A stretch of DNA of 40,546 nucleotides. Origin: Candidatus Termititenax persephonae (lineage in GTDB: Bacteria > Margulisbacteria > Termititenacia > Termititenacales > Termititenacaceae). The position numbers and the translations under genes are program-made. Under the pieces are notes generated by a model. The model was not told the origin of the DNA. It saw only the letters and a list, made by a program, of their open reading frames with translations, and did no database searches. This document shows, piece by piece, positions 24,139 to 34,192 of this stretch. Position 1 is the first letter of the stretch. Every line of letters starts with the position of its first letter. The DNA lies in assembly GCA_003864475.1 (NCBI GenBank), contig BGZO01000012.1:1-40546 (forward strand), read 5' to 3'.

Positions 24139-24189
24139 ATGAATAATTATTGCTTAACAGTTGCCCCCCCCCCCCCCCAGAATTTTTAG
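24139..24189 (+). CDS. Leader ORF containing a 15-C tract (poly-proline), element A
   Basis: GGGAG (24129-24133) precedes an ATG by 5 nt. In the current length the ORF is M-N-N-Y-C-L-T-V-A-P-P-P-P-Q-N-F, stopping at TAG (24187-24189) inside the first hairpin. With 14 or 17 C the frame stays open for 24 more codons and stops at TAA (24251-24253) in the terminator loop. The second poly-C element behaves the same way. The sequence is direct; that it is translated is inferred. Confidence 0.5.
   Translation: MNNYCLTVAPPPPQNF
24164..24178 (+). repeat. Homopolymer tract of 15 C
   Basis: Fifteen consecutive C lie inside the leader ORF. Such tracts slip during replication and are a common phase-variation device. 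The only longer one in the window is the 20-C tract at 31706. Confidence 0.9.
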
Positions 24190-24207
24190 TGTAAATTCAC
24201 TAAAAAT
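24182..24207 (+). other. AT-rich hairpin directly after the C tract, element A
   Basis: ATTTTTAGTG (24182-24191) and CACTAAAAAT (24198-24207) are perfectly complementary around a 6-nt loop. The two shorter reading frames after the C tract stop inside this hairpin. Confidence 0.7.
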
Positions 24208-24239
24208 CCATTTCAGAACAAACGCAATAAAAAACAATT

Positions 24240-24274
24240 CCCTAACTAGTTAAGGCTGGTCAGGGCTTTTTTTT
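24240..24274 (+). terminator. Intrinsic terminator/attenuator with TTAAGG loop, element A
   Basis: CCCT-A-ACTAG pairs with CTGGT-C-AGGG around the loop TTAAGG and is followed by eight T. Outer arms CAAACGC (24219-24225) and GCGTTTG (24275-24281) extend the pairing around the A and T runs. It lies before, not after, a gene, which suits an attenuator. The same loop and tail follow the second C tract. Confidence 0.75.
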
Positions 24275-24308
24275 GCGTTTGGAATAAATAAAGAGAGGAG
24301 GTGTTTTT

Positions 24309-24623
24309 ATGAGTGATTTTAATTTTTCTGTTCCGGCAAATAATGATGTTTATCGTCAGTATAATGTCAGTAATCCGCGTTGGCTAACCAAAAGCCGTGA
24401 TTATAATCCGCCTCCTGGGTACAGGAGAGAGCAGGATAACATAACGGAGCGCGATGTTATGAAGCTGTTGAGAGAGGGTAAGACTGAAACAGTAGATGCA
24501 TTGATTGCGCAACTCAAGTCTGATAATAAACTTGTCGAAGCGGATAAAGTGGAATTAATCAAGAAAGAATTTACAGAAGCAGGTAAAGAAGGAAGAATCA
24601 TATTAATGTATGGTGAGGAGTAG
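24309..24623 (+). CDS. Hypothetical protein downstream of poly-C element A
   Basis: The 104-residue protein is unrecognised. It is polar, with an N-terminal proline/asparagine-rich part (Y-N-P-P-P-G-Y near 33-39) and a helical charged second half (about 45-95). There is no signal peptide or membrane segment. GAGGAGG gives an excellent ribosome site 7 nt before the ATG, unlike the leaderless core genes. It is enclosed between the poly-C attenuator and its own terminator, so it forms a single-gene unit. AT-rich composition suggests acquisition. Confidence 0.65.
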   Translation: MSDFNFSVPANNDVYRQYNVSNPRWLTKSRDYNPPPGYRREQDNITERDVMKLLREGKTETVDALIAQLKSDNKLVEADKVELIKKEFTEAGKEGRIILMYGEE

Positions 24624-24748: not shown

Positions 24749-25027
24749 GTGAGTGTTAATTTACGCGAGGATGTTAAGCCGATTTCTTATATCAAGACCA
24801 ATGCTGCGGATATGCTGGATTATGTGAATGAACGCAAAAACCCGGTGATTGTTACCCAGCACGGTGAGGCCAGAGGGGTTTTTCTGGACATTGAGTCCTA
24901 TCAAAATATGATTAACGCCATGGCTTTGCTGAAATTGCTACAAATTTCTGAGAAGGCTATTGAGGCCGGAGAGGTTTATGACCATGCGGAAGTTTTTGCG
25001 GAGTTGAAGAAAAGATTAAGGTCTTAA
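24749..25027 (+). CDS. Phd/YefM-family antitoxin
   Basis: The 92-residue protein shows the Phd/YefM fold: I-S-Y-I-K-T-N-A-A-D-M-L-D-Y-V (about 13-27), P-V-I-V-T-Q-H-G-E-A-R-G-V (about 32-44) and a C-terminal helical tail that would bind the toxin. It likely represses its own promoter. The start is GTG with AGGGGTG upstream. The toxin gene follows after 3 nt. Confidence 0.88.
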   Translation: MSVNLREDVKPISYIKTNAADMLDYVNERKNPVIVTQHGEARGVFLDIESYQNMINAMALLKLLQISEKAIEAGEVYDHAEVFAELKKRLRS

Positions 25028-25030
25028 AAC

Positions 25031-25369
25031 ATGCCGGAAAGACTGCGGGTAAAGTGGACTGCTCCGGCGCGCGTCGATTTATTTGAAATAATTGACTATC
25101 TTGCGCAGGACGAGCGGGCTGCCGCTGTCAATGTTTTGCACAAACTGGAAACCGCGGCGCATAAACTGGCCGTTTTCCCGCAATGGGGCAGGGTTGTCCC
25201 AGAATTGGCGAAGTATGGTTATCTGCTGTATCGTGAAATAGTAAGCGCTCCCTGGCGGATTATTTATAAGGTCGCGCGGAAAACCGTGTTTGTATTGTCC
25301 GTACTGGACAGCCGGAGAAATATCGAAGATATTATTCTCAAAAAAATTGTACTCCAGCCGCCGATATAA
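25031..25369 (+). CDS. ParE/RelE-superfamily toxin
   Basis: The 112-residue protein fits the ParE/RelE fold: V-K-W-T-A-P-A-R-V-D-L-F-E-I-I-D-Y-L near the start, G-R-V-V-P-E-L in the middle, Y-R-E-I-V-S-A-P-W-R-I-I-Y-K and a C-terminal V-L-D-S-R-R-N. The R-E-I..Y-R-I-I-Y pattern is typical of ParE gyrase poisons. It is paired with the antitoxin upstream and appears intact, in contrast to the broken PIN module nearby. Confidence 0.88.
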   Translation: MPERLRVKWTAPARVDLFEIIDYLAQDERAAAVNVLHKLETAAHKLAVFPQWGRVVPELAKYGYLLYREIVSAPWRIIYKVARKTVFVLSVLDSRRNIEDIILKKIVLQPPI

Positions 25370-26421: not shown

Positions 26422-27606
26422 ATGTCCGTTCTTTCCATTAATTGCGGCAGTTCTTCTTTGAAATATCTGCTCTACGACTGGGACGCGCAAAAAGTTTTGG
26501 CCAGCGGCTTGATTGACCGCATCGGCCTGCCGGATTCCAATATTGTCCATAAACACAATGACCAAAAAATTGAGCGCAAGGGCAAATGTGCCGACCACCG
26601 CACGGCGATAAATCTGGTGCTGGCTTTTTTGCAAGAAGCCAAGGTGATTCATTCTCTGCAGGACATTGAGGGTGTCGGACACCGCATTGTCCACGGCGGC
26701 GAAAAATTCTCGGCCTCGGCGCGGGTTGATGACGCGGTTTTGGCGGAGATTAAGGCCAACGGGGATTTGGCTCCCCTGCATACGCCGCCCAATGTTGTGG
26801 GCATCGAGTCGGCGCGTGCGGTCATGCCGGACACGCCGCAGATAGTGATTTTTGACACAGCTTTTCATCAGACCATGCCCGAACACGCCTACTCTTACGC
26901 GTTGGACTATGCCTTGGCGCAGAAATATAAGATACGCAAGTACGGTTTTCATGGCAGTTCGCACCGTTATGTGTCCGAGCGCGCGGCGGAATTGCTGGGC
27001 GGAAAAAACGCTTGGAAATTAATCATCGCGCATGTGGGCAACGGCTCGTCGCTCTCCGCCGTGCGGGGCGGCAAGTGTGTCGATACGTCGATGGGCTTGA
27101 CCCCGCTGGCCGGGGTGATTATGGGTACGCGCACCGGAGACATTGACCCGGCGGTGGTGCAGGTTTTGGCGGATAAATTGGGCGAGCCTTTGCCCCAGAT
27201 TTTAAATAGATTAAATAAAGAGAGCGGGATGCTGGGTGTCTCCGGCTACTCCGACCAGCGCGATATTATTGCCGGAGCGGAGAACGGCGACGCGCGTTGC
27301 CGGCTCGCCTTGCAAATGCAGGCTTATTCGATAAAAAAATATATCGGCGCGTATCTGGCGGTTTTGGACGGCGCGGACGCACTGATTTTCACAGCGGGCA
27401 TTGGCGAGAACAGCGCCAGCTTCCGGCAGGATGTTTGCGCGGATTTGGGCAATCTCGGCATCAAGCTGGACTTGGCAAAAAACAAAGAGCGCGGCGGCGA
27501 GCGGATAATCTCCGCGCCGGATTCCCGAGTCAAGGTCATGGTCATCCCGACCAATGAGGAGTTTATTATCGCCAGAGATGTGATTGAGATTGTGCGGGGC
27601 AAATAG
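26422..27606 (+). CDS. ackA: Acetate kinase
   Basis: The 394-residue enzyme converts acetyl phosphate and ADP to acetate and ATP. Hallmarks are S-I-N-C-G-S-S-S-L-K-Y (4-14), V-G-H-R-I-V-H-G-G near 86-94, F-H-G-S-S-H-R-Y-V near 174 and M-G-T-R-T-G-D-I-D-P near 234. GGAGG is the ribosome site. Bases 27153-27203 are present again, exactly and in reverse orientation, at 31622-31672. Confidence 0.96.
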   Translation: MSVLSINCGSSSLKYLLYDWDAQKVLASGLIDRIGLPDSNIVHKHNDQKIERKGKCADHRTAINLVLAFLQEAKVIHSLQDIEGVGHRIVHGGEKFSASARVDDAVLAEIKANGDLAPLHTPPNVVGIESARAVMPDTPQIVIFDTAFHQTMPEHAYSYALDYALAQKYKIRKYGFHGSSHRYVSERAAELLGGKNAWKLIIAHVGNGSSLSAVRGGKCVDTSMGLTPLAGVIMGTRTGDIDPAVVQVLADKLGEPLPQILNRLNKESGMLGVSGYSDQRDIIAGAENGDARCRLALQMQAYSIKKYIGAYLAVLDGADALIFTAGIGENSASFRQDVCADLGNLGIKLDLAKNKERGGERIISAPDSRVKVMVIPTNEEFIIARDVIEIVRGK

Positions 27607-30518: not shown

Positions 30519-31151
30519 TTGGCGCGGCGAAACCGTGCGGCAGAGCAAATGCCTTTTTCCCCATTTCACGCTAAAATAAACCTGATGCGCGGCGGTAAAA
30601 ATACTCTCCGAAAATTTCCCCTGCAGCGGGCTTTTACATTTATGGAGGAAGGCCCGGTCGTTTTATTGAGTACTTTTTATCAGGGGCGGAATAATATAAT
30701 GACCGCCAGCTGCACCATGTCGATGGATTTCAGCCCCATGGTTGGCGTGATGCTGGGGCCGTGGGATTGTTCCTATCGCGCTTTGCTTAAAACCAGAGAA
30801 TGTGTCCTTGCCATACCCGGCGCGGATTTGCTGGCCAAAACTGTCGCTATCGGCAACTGCTCCGGCGCTGAAGTGGATAAATTTGCCGAATATAAACTAA
30901 CGCCCTGTCTGGCCGCGAAAGTAAAAGCGCCGCTGATTGGCGAGGCCTTGAAAAATCTGGAATGTAAACTAATCAAAAAACTTAATATCAACGGCGGCGA
31001 ATTATTTGTCCTGCAGGGTGTCGCGGCCTGGCACAATCCGGCGCGGCGTGAGCAGCGTACTTTTCACGCCAAAGGCGACGGAACTTTTTTTATCGATGGC
31101 CGGCAGGTCAACCTGCGCTCCAAAATGACGCGCTGGCAGGACTGCATTTGA
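30519..31151 (+). CDS. Flavin-reductase-like FMN-binding protein
   Basis: The 210-residue protein fits the flavin reductase-like split-barrel family. V-V-L-L-S-T is followed by N-I-M-T-A-S-C-T-M-S and S-P-M-V-G-V-M-L-G, then R-E-C-V-L-A-I-P and L-E-C-K-L. Such proteins bind FMN and often reduce flavins or act in anaerobic electron transfer. The start is uncertain: TTG 30519 gives the full frame, and ATG 30549 is an alternative. The last 14 codons occur again at 33966-34008, across the inserted island. Confidence 0.7.
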   Translation: MARRNRAAEQMPFSPFHAKINLMRGGKNTLRKFPLQRAFTFMEEGPVVLLSTFYQGRNNIMTASCTMSMDFSPMVGVMLGPWDCSYRALLKTRECVLAIPGADLLAKTVAIGNCSGAEVDKFAEYKLTPCLAAKVKAPLIGEALKNLECKLIKKLNINGGELFVLQGVAAWHNPARREQRTFHAKGDGTFFIDGRQVNLRSKMTRWQDCI

Positions 31152-31337
31152 GACTATTTATTTTTTTATAGCCTTTGAAACAAAATATCGGATTTACGTT
31201 CCAAAATTGTGTATCTAGAGATACCTTCGGGTTCTGGTCTTATACACCGCGTATTCTCTGCCAAATTTATTTTGCAGAAATTTTTCCTCTCTCAATATTT
31301 GCAGATGCAGACCGGGCAAGACCAATATTGCGGCCAC
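31110..31337. repeat. Left copy of a ~228-bp direct repeat flanking the island
   Basis: The segment contains the 3' end of the flavin-reductase gene and, on the other strand, the 3' end of a methyltransferase gene. It matches 33966-34192 with one gap and about 87% identity by eye. Changes in both coding ends are mostly silent or conservative. Confidence 0.88.
31215..31337 (-). pseudogene. C-terminal fragment of a second methyltransferase copy
   Basis: Forty codons encode a tail nearly identical to that of the intact methyltransferase at 34070: L-P-G-L-H-L-Q-I-L-R-E-E-K-F-L-Q-N-K-F-G, then R-E-Y and R-R-Y-L, stop. Homology ends at 31337. Twelve bases at 31342-31353 (GCGCCGGAAAAT) match the region upstream of the intact copy (34726-34737), so the body was deleted between these points. 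Confidence 0.75.
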
Positions 31338-31484: not shown

Positions 31485-31612
31485 TAGAAAAAATCGATGT
31501 ATAAAGAGGGTATATTTTTTCAATAAGTGGGTAATTACTTAGATGAGATTTTGGCGTAGCGAGAGACATAAAAATATTCTCCGTGTTTGAAAATAAGAGT
31601 TGGAGTTTTACC

Positions 31613-31771
31613 ATGAGAAAAAAAATCTGGGGCAAAGGCTCGCCCAATTTATCCGCCAAAACCTGCACCACCAGAAAAAAAATGAATTTAGTATTCATTA
31701 ACAGTCCCCCCCCCCCCCCCCCCCCAACAATTTTTCGCTTGGGTACGCTGAAAATTCAGAGTTTTTCATAA
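31613..31771 (+). CDS. Leader ORF containing a 20-C tract (poly-proline), element B
   Basis: GGAG (31602-31605) lies 7 nt before ATG 31613. The 52-codon ORF contains seven prolines from the C tract and stops at TAA 31769-31771, between the two hairpins. Removing the ackA-derived insert leaves M-R-K-K-M-N-L-V-F-I-N-S followed by the prolines in the same frame. With 21 or 18 C the frame runs 25 codons further and stops at TAA in the terminator loop. Translation is inferred. Confidence 0.5.
   Translation: MRKKIWGKGSPNLSAKTCTTRKKMNLVFINSPPPPPPPTIFRLGTLKIQSFS
31616..31683 (-). other. ackA-derived antisense insert with 11-bp flanking repeats
   Basis: Bases 31622-31672 are the exact reverse complement of ackA 27153-27203 (51 nt, codons for V-V-Q-V-L-A-D-K-L-G-E-P-L-P-Q-I). 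AGAAAAAAAAT occurs at 31616-31626 and 31673-31683, bounding the copy like a target-site duplication. The inserted length is 57 nt, so the leader frame is kept. Confidence 0.85.
31706..31725 (+). repeat. Homopolymer tract of 20 C
   Basis: Twenty consecutive C follow TTAACAGT, as in element A (TTAACAGTTG before 15 C). Length is as assembled and may vary in the population. Confidence 0.9.
31729..31756 (+). other. AT-rich hairpin directly after the C tract, element B
   Basis: AATTTTTCGC and GCTGAAAATT pair with one mismatch around an 8-nt loop. Position and AT character match the hairpin at 24182-24207. Confidence 0.6.
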
Positions 31772-31786
31772 ATGCAGTTTATAGTG

Positions 31787-31821
31787 AAACCCTGTCCGGT
31801 TAAGGCCGGTCGAGGTTTTTT
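31787..31821 (+). terminator. Terminator-like hairpin with TTAAGG loop, element B
   Basis: AAACCCTGTCCGG pairs with CCGGTCGAGGTTT around loop TTAAGG, with two mismatches, followed by a T run and GTGTTTGGAGTAAA. Element A has the same loop and GCGTTTGGAATAAA after its T run. Confidence 0.65.
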
Positions 31822-31854
31822 GTGTTTGGAGTAAAAAATTTTGGGAGATGATAT

Positions 31855-31989
31855 ATGTGTCCGGAGAAAGAAACTTTGAATCTAGGGACTATTAGAATTG
31901 CTAAAAATGACCCAAAAACAAAGGTACTTTTGAAAAAGTATTTTTCGGCCATTCTAGAGGGGGATTTTACTTACAATCCTTTCAGATAA
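31855..31989 (+). CDS. Hypothetical 44-residue protein
   Basis: The ORF starts 6 nt after GGGAGATG and ends 24 nt before the 616-residue gene. The peptide is basic in its middle (D-P-K-T-K-V-L-L-K-K) and unrecognised. It is the first gene after the poly-C attenuator and could be translated with its neighbour. Short length keeps confidence low. Confidence 0.4.
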   Translation: MCPEKETLNLGTIRIAKNDPKTKVLLKKYFSAILEGDFTYNPFR

Positions 31990-32013: not shown

Positions 32014-33864
32014 ATGGGCCTGAATTTTGATCCAAATATTTTAGATATGAAAAGTAGGATAGGGCATGCACTTAAAGAAAACAACTCTAATGGAAAAGAA
32101 TCAATACTAAAAATCAATGGTGAAAGAGTGCCCTTGAATGGGAGTACCATAGAGGACAAGGCACACGAAATAGTATCGCATATTTTGGATGCTTTTAAGG
32201 AAGAGGGAATACAAGCCGTTAAAATAACATTAGAAACGCCGGCTAATGAGGCTGATAAGGTGTTATTAGAGATTACTGAAGGGTCTGATAGTATTAGTGT
32301 AAAATATTCTCCTCCTGATATGCCATTTTATAGTGAGTATATGTATCCCCAATCTGGCGGAACGCCAGAGATAAGACTGGTGCAAGAATCTAACCCCGCC
32401 GTCCGTACCCAGGAAGATTTACTTAAAGATTTCAACAGGCAATGCTCGCAGAATGGTATAACAATGCTTGATAATAATATTCTTGATAATGATAAATTCA
32501 AAATTGAGATTGGGTATAGTGACGCTGGCAACTATACCTTGAAATTTATATTAAAGGAGGGTTTTGAGCTTAGGGACCAATATGGAAAAACAGCGTCAAA
32601 TATTATTAAGATTAATTTTTTTGAAAATTCGCAGAAAGCATTAAAGATTACCCCTGAAGGGAATATATTTCTATCGTCTAGCAACGAGCCAACTTATATA
32701 ATAAAATCGCCAGAGGAAATCCAGCGAGAAAATAAATTTAGAGAACGGCTTCAAAGTGGAACAGATTTTCCAGAGGGAAAATACGATTTATCTCGTATAA
32801 TGAGAGAAAGAGGAGGGGAAAGGGCTACTATACAGCTACCAAATAACAAATATATGTCATACACAACCGATTATGTTAGTGGTGCTTATACCATTACTAT
32901 AGGCAACGATATTAATCAGCAAGGTAGGATTATTCCTTCTGATGAGACAAGAAGTATTAAAATTAAGGCCGCTGAATTGGAAAAATTCCCAATTTTAAAG
33001 AAGTTGCTAAGTGAAATATCCAATAGTATTCAAAATATTGAAGACTATAAGAATAAATCTTTAGAATTCAAACACGAAAAAAAACTGCTTGATTCGATAC
33101 TGCCGAATACTAAATATGAGGAATCAAGAACACAGGAAATTCAGAGAATCATTGATTCCCTAGAAGCGAAATACGGTGAGAAGTGGGGAATAAGATTTGA
33201 AAAAAACGGGGATGGTAACTATACAATAACTTTTGGAGGCAATACAAGAGTTTCGCCTGAAAACAAAACAATTTTATATAATCCTAATGACGACATGCTT
33301 TATGGTTTACAAATAATTGAGCGTGGGGACAATACGCTTAATGTGTATACCGAAAAAAGTGGAATCTATGAAGTTAAAATTCCCACAGCTAAAGAGATCG
33401 AGCAAGAAAAAATACAAGCGGCAGCAGAAGAATCAATAAGGAACATACTTAAAGAGCCGCCTAAGGGAAACTACGAGATAATGTTTTCGGAAAGAGGCGA
33501 TATAACTCCTAGAAAACTACCGAAATCTGAAGCGGTTACTGTAAAAATTCCAAATACTGCTCCGGAAAAATACATGACATATATTCATTTTGAATTTAAG
33601 GACAGTGAACCTTTTTGGAGTATTTCTATGGGTACGGAGCTTGATGATGAATATGGTGCGGTATTAGTTGATGATAGTCCGCAGGTTCACATTCCTGTCA
33701 GTGAATTAAAGCATTATCCAGAGTTTGTGTCGCTTCAAGAAGCCATAAGAAGCGTTAACTATGGGCCGCAAGACTCCAAAGACAAAGGGTCATCCTTATA
33801 CTACTACATCAACGACGGTGGAAATTCTATTAGTGTTCCTTATCCACCTGAAGAAACGCCTTAA
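32014..33864 (+). CDS. 616-residue hypothetical protein with internal A-B-A-B duplication
   Basis: TTAAGGAGGAATAT gives a near-perfect ribosome site. No family is recognised. Two ~230-residue units follow each other. Module A is at about 146-250 and 378-482, sharing G-N-Y-T and a closing E-E/K-I-Q/E-x-E. Module B is at about 253-340 and 483-580, sharing P-x-G-x-Y, K-Y-M-x-Y and a P-I/E-x-x-x-L-x-E/A-I end. It is beta-rich, acidic and AT-rich, with no signal peptide or membrane helix. Residues 1-145 are separate. It is the main cargo of the island. Confidence 0.75.
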   Translation: MGLNFDPNILDMKSRIGHALKENNSNGKESILKINGERVPLNGSTIEDKAHEIVSHILDAFKEEGIQAVKITLETPANEADKVLLEITEGSDSISVKYSPPDMPFYSEYMYPQSGGTPEIRLVQESNPAVRTQEDLLKDFNRQCSQNGITMLDNNILDNDKFKIEIGYSDAGNYTLKFILKEGFELRDQYGKTASNIIKINFFENSQKALKITPEGNIFLSSSNEPTYIIKSPEEIQRENKFRERLQSGTDFPEGKYDLSRIMRERGGERATIQLPNNKYMSYTTDYVSGAYTITIGNDINQQGRIIPSDETRSIKIKAAELEKFPILKKLLSEISNSIQNIEDYKNKSLEFKHEKKLLDSILPNTKYEESRTQEIQRIIDSLEAKYGEKWGIRFEKNGDGNYTITFGGNTRVSPENKTILYNPNDDMLYGLQIIERGDNTLNVYTEKSGIYEVKIPTAKEIEQEKIQAAAEESIRNILKEPPKGNYEIMFSERGDITPRKLPKSEAVTVKIPNTAPEKYMTYIHFEFKDSEPFWSISMGTELDDEYGAVLVDDSPQVHIPVSELKHYPEFVSLQEAIRSVNYGPQDSKDKGSSLYYYINDGGNSISVPYPPEETP

Positions 33865-33965
33865 CGTAAAAGTTAGGAGTGTAAAAATAAAATCCGTTGG
33901 AGTAGTTTCAGAACCAGAACTGGCTATACTGCTGGTGCCAAAATATATTTGTACTGGCACAGATT

Positions 33966-34192
33966 AACCTGCGCTCCAAAATGACGCGCTGGCAGGACTG
34001 CATTTAAAACGGTTTATTTTTTATAACCTTTGAAACAAAATATAGAATTTACGTTCCAAAATTGTGTATCTAGAGGTACCTCTTGGTTCCGGCCTTGTAC
34101 GCGCAATATTCTCTGCCAAATTTATTTTGCAGAAATTTTTCCTCTCGCAATATTTGCAGATGCAGGCCGGGCATGACTAGCACAGCGGCCAC
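33966..34192. repeat. Right copy of the ~228-bp direct repeat flanking the island
   Basis: Begins with the last 14 codons of a flavin-reductase gene (N-L-R-S-K-M-T-R-W-Q-D-C-I, stop) with no gene body before it, and ends inside the intact methyltransferase. It mirrors 31110-31337. The inverted repeat GTGCCA/TGGCAC (33935-33960) lies just outside. Confidence 0.88.

Follow-up and report, generated by a model that had tools for sequence, protein, structure and literature searches.

The window analyzed here, a stretch of 40,546 nucleotides from Candidatus Termititenax persephonae (contig BGZO01000012.1), carries two poly-C leader elements, A and B, which are built on the same plan (Table 1). Element B combines a leader ORF with its own Shine-Dalgarno sequence, a C tract, an AT-rich hairpin (hairpin 1) and a terminator-like hairpin, and all these parts stand in the order that an earlier sequence-only reading had described for both elements. 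Element A differs from B in its C15 tract, in a TG added ahead of that tract, in T8 and in GCGTTTGGAATAAA. The GGAGTTTT context before the ATG of element B is common to the MKKxLNL leaders of relatives, and the counterpart of its pre-tract leader in one of these (L232) reads MKKVFNKDFNLVSINS. No clear promoter was identified for element B, and a search with Rfam covariance models of known leaders and riboswitches found no matches in the window. Runs of at least 14 C like those of the window did not arise in any of 100 shuffles and are thus not expected by chance, and the hairpin-1 pattern was seen twice against 0.01 expected.

Table 1. Coordinates of the two poly-C elements and the adjacent features in the window
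Feature	Position	Strand	Details
Element A	24139..24288	+	same plan and order as element B; leader MNNYCLTV
Element A C15 tract	24164-24178		
Element A hairpin 1	24182-24206		
Element A stop TAA	24251-24253		on-frame end RIFSVNSLKIHFRTNAIKNNSLTS; stop inside loop of terminator-like hairpin
Gene downstream of element A	24309..24623	+	104 aa; related to the genes that follow L088 and L090
Direct repeat, left copy	31104..31337	+	flanks B cassette and gene
Element B, poly-C leader cassette	31602-31835	+	
Shine-Dalgarno of B leader ORF	31602..31605	+	GGAG
B leader ORF, pre-tract part	31613..31705	+	MRKKIWGKGSPNLSAKTCTTRKKMNLVFINS; 31 codons from ATG 31613
Inverted ackA copy in B leader	31622..31672	+	51 bp, perfect; source at window 27153-27203
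Last part of B leader before tract	31698-31705		TTAACAGT
B C20 tract	31706..31725	+	
B on-frame leader end	31726..31803	+	NNFSLGYAENSEFFINAVYSETLSG; TAA stop 31801-31803
B hairpin 1	31730..31754	+	AT-rich; stem kept in family
B terminator-like hairpin with outer stem	31770..31827	+	fold, covariation
B outer stem	31770-31777		pairs with 31820-31827
B terminator core	31786-31819		loop UAAG 31801-31804; U6; TTAAGG at 31800-31805
GTGTTTGGAGTAAA in element B	31822-31835	+	
Small ORF downstream of B	31855..31989	+	MCPEKETLNLGTIRIAKNDPKTKVLLKKYFSAILEGDFTYNPFR; Shine-Dalgarno GGGAG at 31843
Gene downstream of B	32014..33864	+	616 aa
Direct repeat, right copy	33960-34192		flanks B cassette and gene

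Of the three frames of element B only one is open beyond the tract, and it runs for 25 codons to the TAA that forms bases 1-3 of the UAAG tetraloop of the terminator. This long frame requires 18 or 21 C, and the present 20 C do not place the leader in it; the other two frames meet a TGA at 31749 and a TAA at 31769. A single open frame of precisely this length and end had been claimed from the letters of the sequence, with the one difference that it was said to pass both hairpins, whereas its stop lies within the loop of the second. Taken singly, the open frames of the three less related cases B, A and L094 are not unusual (P=0.28, 0.21 and 0.14, respectively); their joint probability is about 0.008. 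The terminator hairpin folds better than shuffled sequences (z=-2.7 to -3.0); taken alone, hairpin 1 of B is weak (z=-0.44). Both the A and B terminators bear stem mismatches and were missed by a simple terminator scan, in the case of B because of these mismatches.

The small ORF directly downstream of B has no match in Pfam, and neither has the 616-residue product of the following gene, which is absent from all seven other genomes searched and yields only a low-confidence structure model (pLDDT 53.6). The cassette and this gene are flanked by direct repeats of about 234 bp, whose copies are 87-90% identical. In a relative (G004) the two flanking genes of B are adjacent, with one repeat copy and no cassette; the switch and the gene therefore probably arrived together. 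The copy of ackA sequence in the B leader is likely a templated insertion, which keeps the leader in frame because it is 17 codons long. As the copy is inverted, the B leader RNA would be antisense to the ackA mRNA over 51 bases, and antisense regulation of ackA is possible; the insert may also mean that B is partly decayed. Just downstream of the element-A gene lies a Phd/YefM-ParE toxin-antitoxin pair (window 24749-25369).

A family of poly-C cassettes in Termititenax

Dozens of poly-C leader cassettes related to element B occur in Candidatus Termititenax (Margulisbacteria), bacteria of the termite gut. A loose C-tract and hairpin pattern, used to scan genomes from 84,980 species, retrieved 19 stretches, all of them in Candidatus Termititenax aidoneus or Margulisiibacteriota bins. 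Within the phylum the pattern was found in six of 38 genomes, five from the genus of the window, its own genome among them, and one from a sister genus, and in none of the 30 genomes from other families. A viral origin of the cassette was rejected, as a search of IMG/VR with the hairpin pattern gave no matches.

The genome-wide comparison of such elements envisaged by the sequence-only reading was carried out and extended to related species. The genome of the window has 39 tracts of at least 9 C, and together with its relatives it supplied about 130 distinct tracts, not all of which are leaders, since some lie inside the gene itself and some are unrelated. A start module, that is a Shine-Dalgarno sequence and ATG before the tract, was detected in 37 of them, most being clear leaders and a few doubtful (e.g. 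the MQ and single-M cases). The recurrent start modules are MKKxLNL, M(A)DKDKIVTI, MNNYYLTV and MVSGQ...VVLSNTY. In many cassettes one of a few start modules is linked, by way of the C tract, to one of a few end modules, and the 5' and 3' modules are shuffled across the tract. The end modules show three modes. In the first the stop lies in the terminator loop (A, B, L038, L088, L090 and L094) or, in one class of the window genome, the frame runs through a strong terminator (L024, L034, L078 and L079); in the second the leader reaches the beginning of the following gene or overlaps it, with a 4-base ATGA overlap in L155, L176, L193 and L205; and in the third the frame continues directly into a lipoprotein signal peptide (L026, L027 and L218). 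The stop position first noted in A and B recurs in the four additional terminator-loop copies, making six of six despite the diverged stems. Tract length varies widely among paralogues, as a rule from 9 to 22 C, and ten of the 37 leaders with a detectable start are predicted to be on, close to one third.

As far as can be read from their sequences, the genes behind the cassettes appear to encode lipoproteins, proteins with tail-fibre-like repeats, a likely autotransporter-end protein, an O-acyltransferase-like protein and a polysaccharide-exporter-like protein. One of them (L077, tract at 506) is a 639-aa protein of cysteine- and glycine-rich repeats. Another type of poly-C leader, ATGCAAGT-C11/12-ATCGATATATAGGCATAAACATGG, is found at repeated loci before related genes (L075, contig C40).

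Several local features accompany the tracts. TA precedes the tract in 71 of 115 cases and TTA in 45, regardless of the reading frame (L014-L232). In L024, L034 and L076-L079 the next gene has six to eight consecutive G as its Shine-Dalgarno sequence, and pairing with the C tract could hide it. In L206, L210, L225, L226 and L177 the on-frame ends in an RGDAYG-like motif over an SD-like GAGGTG, which is followed by a mini-ORF of two or three codons; a facing CCTC in some of these may form a Shine-Dalgarno hairpin. In the window genome contig ends coincide with C tracts in four of 39 cases, an excess over expectation (P=0.002; C18, C24, C33 and C84), and several T. aidoneus contigs likewise end at such tracts, as if assembly breaks from a mixture of lengths or a loss of coverage.

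Conservation of the open frame and of the stems

Substitutions were examined on spanning trees within four end-module groups, comprising 27 neighbour alignments. Those at codon positions 1, 2 and 3 of the open frame numbered 94, 64 and 112 (P=0.0015), and permutation of the observed changes gave 77.0 expected synonymous changes against 103 seen (P=0.0005); the other two frames showed no significant upward departure (92 against 82.1 and 67 against 78.3). The excess is also present in the group of element A alone (10 against 5.6, P=0.017). Stop gains in the open frame were zero against 10.7 expected, a deficit that agrees with this but is in part a consequence of the choice of region. In the 5' modules synonymous changes reached significance only in the MNNYYLTV group (P=0.011). 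The check on synonymous changes that had been put forward thus shows an excess in the open frame and in no other. Conservation of the hidden frame had originally been argued from the peptides of A and B, which do share the motifs listed for them; their similarity is however no better than that of shuffled peptides (P=0.10), and it is the synonymous excess across the family, not the comparison of A with B, that bears out the claim. Selection on the frame is mild, and openness seems to count for more than the exact peptide.

The predicted stems are likewise retained. Over ten terminators 83% of the pair cells hold, and in the terminator together with its outer stem 15 cells changed on both sides against 7.2 expected. 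The covariation score of the terminator exceeded all 500 shuffles and all slid controls, so that the compensatory changes sought in the TTAAGG stem were indeed found. Hairpin 1 keeps 91.5% of its cells paired over 26 distinct family sequences, and four of its ten pairs show changes on both sides.

A candidate phase-variable attenuator and its alternatives

Based on these observations we consider element B a likely phase-variable leader-peptide attenuator. The slipping C tract probably decides whether ribosomes get as far as the terminator before a surface-type gene, giving a random on/off switch, and this switch seems to have been copied in front of many genes of a termite-gut bacterium. We infer slippage in cells, termination and an effect on the gene along the following lines. 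Ribosomes starting at 31613 would enter the C tract, whose length is expected to shift by replication slippage. With 18 or 21 C they would read 25 further codons and halt on the loop of the intrinsic terminator; the hairpin, we propose, could therefore not form and the downstream gene would be transcribed. With other tract lengths they would stop upstream, at 31749 or 31769, and leave the terminator free to fold. Since CCC encodes proline in every frame, six or so prolines would have to be crossed in each state, in which EF-P, itself encoded in the genome of the window, would help, and the crossing may tune read-through. Element B with C20 is predicted to be off, as is A with C15, though the tract length in an assembly can be wrong. 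The off state of B may leak, because only some 17 bases separate its stop at 31769 from the hairpin core, and it may be leakier than the off state with the stop at 31749.

The closest parallel is the pil1 locus of S. gallolyticus, where a leader ORF shifts frame through its GCAGA repeats: the short version ends 39-49 bp ahead of a terminator and gives low expression, and long leaders stop just before, within or after it and give high expression, a mechanism proven with start-codon, stop and terminator mutants (Danne 2014, PMC3894217). As in pil1 and pil3 (PMC3894217), a simple repeat lies in a translated leader ORF, whose frame would decide access to an intrinsic terminator, the long frame has its end at, within or beyond the hairpin, and a surface gene follows downstream. 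Each sequence feature of the pil1 system is present in B: an ORF with Shine-Dalgarno sequence and start upstream of the gene, a repeat inside it whose unit is not divisible by three, a predicted intrinsic terminator between leader and gene (fold z about -3, U6, covariation), and only one of three frames that reaches this terminator. The Streptococcus system involves GCAGA pentamers at two pilus loci, whereas that of Termititenax has a C homopolymer encoding polyproline, at dozens of loci and before many kinds of genes; unlike the former it has a shared hairpin module and a stop fixed in the loop, and it belongs to an unrelated phylum. In the literature searched, phase variation by leader ORF and terminator is described only for the two pilus loci of one Streptococcus group.

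Element B also resembles the poly-C and poly-G contingency loci of Campylobacter, Neisseria and Helicobacter in having a long C tract close to where surface or glycan genes begin, and those Termititenax tracts that lie within a gene are placed as in these loci. Unlike in these classical homopolymer loci the tract of B belongs to a leader ORF of its own and would act through a predicted terminator. Attenuation at pyrBI responds to pyrimidine nucleotides, whereas in Termititenax no ligand is implied and the switch would sit in the DNA. The likeness to pyrBI/pyrL-type attenuation is that a leader ribosome near RNA polymerase suppresses a terminator, with PPPPPP placed before it (PMC5021804). Ribosomes of E. 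coli have been found to repress terminators near stop codons (PMC4824070), and with PPPPPP before the pyrL terminator expression was 26-fold lower without EF-P and less than 2-fold lower with it (PMC5021804), this combination being an engineered reporter, unlike the natural tract of Termititenax.

Among the alternatives the one that survives best, though we judge it unlikely, is that B has decayed and lost its function while other members of the family still work elsewhere in the genome, the gene behind B being expressed by other means. The 51-bp ackA insert, the weak hairpin 1 and the mismatched terminator stem speak for such decay; however, the length of the insert is divisible by three and the leader stays open, and the frame, the loop stop and the stem are all retained, with the stem changes of B partly compensated by wobble pairs. 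Somewhat less probable again is a tract on which RNA polymerase or the ribosome slips, so that all frames arise from one DNA as a fixed mixture with no heritable switch. A long homopolymer followed by a hairpin is indeed a layout known from frameshift signals, but the spread of tract lengths among paralogues fits slippage of the DNA, with which slippage of polymerase or ribosome is in any case compatible.

The remaining alternatives are weaker still. A promoter-spacing switch, for which meningococcal opc is the precedent, would have the tract set the distance between TTAACA as -35 and AACAAT as -10; it is improbable, for although TTAACA before the tract and CAGAAT/AACAAT after it occur in A and B, most family members lack TTAACA at this place, the tract is part of an ORF that has a Shine-Dalgarno sequence of its own, and in the DKDKIVTI leaders TATAAT boxes stand upstream of the ATG. 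Spacing of the opc/porA/fim3 type was rejected, as the -35 and -10 boxes are not conserved in the family. No more credible is a recombination or retrohoming site with an incidental frame, such as the homing element of a DGR, whose IMH sites the C tract with its hairpin resembles. Modules are shuffled across the tract, and the genome has three reverse transcriptases; yet the cassettes lie 5' of genes, their frame is under selection, and the three reverse-transcriptase genes all sit within about 8 kb on contig C9 (L102, 2051-10153), which is without any listed C tract. A DGR homing site, which would be expected at the 3' end of a variable gene beside a reverse transcriptase and a template repeat, was rejected on the position of the cassettes and the lack of a nearby reverse transcriptase. 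The least probable alternative, a target for a small RNA or protein, has a precedent for a variable homopolymer in a leader in the G-repeat of H. pylori tlpB bound by RepG (PMC8295292), but it would leave the open frame, the synonymous bias and the stop in the terminator loop unexplained.

Beyond the phase-variable attenuator proposed for element B itself, we tentatively advance a wider reading, which we hold to be possible but rather doubtful, that one modular poly-C/polyproline cassette, reshuffled at the C tract, furnishes genome-wide heritable on/off switches with three output modes and EF-P as a dimmer for all. If true, a set of this kind across the genome of an uncultured symbiont from a candidate phylum would turn phase variation by leader and terminator into a general strategy, and it would flag genes whose expression hinges on an unannotated leader frame. 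The polyproline tract before the terminator is a natural version of the engineered EF-P reporter, and with this layout the effect of EF-P on many surface genes therefore becomes testable.
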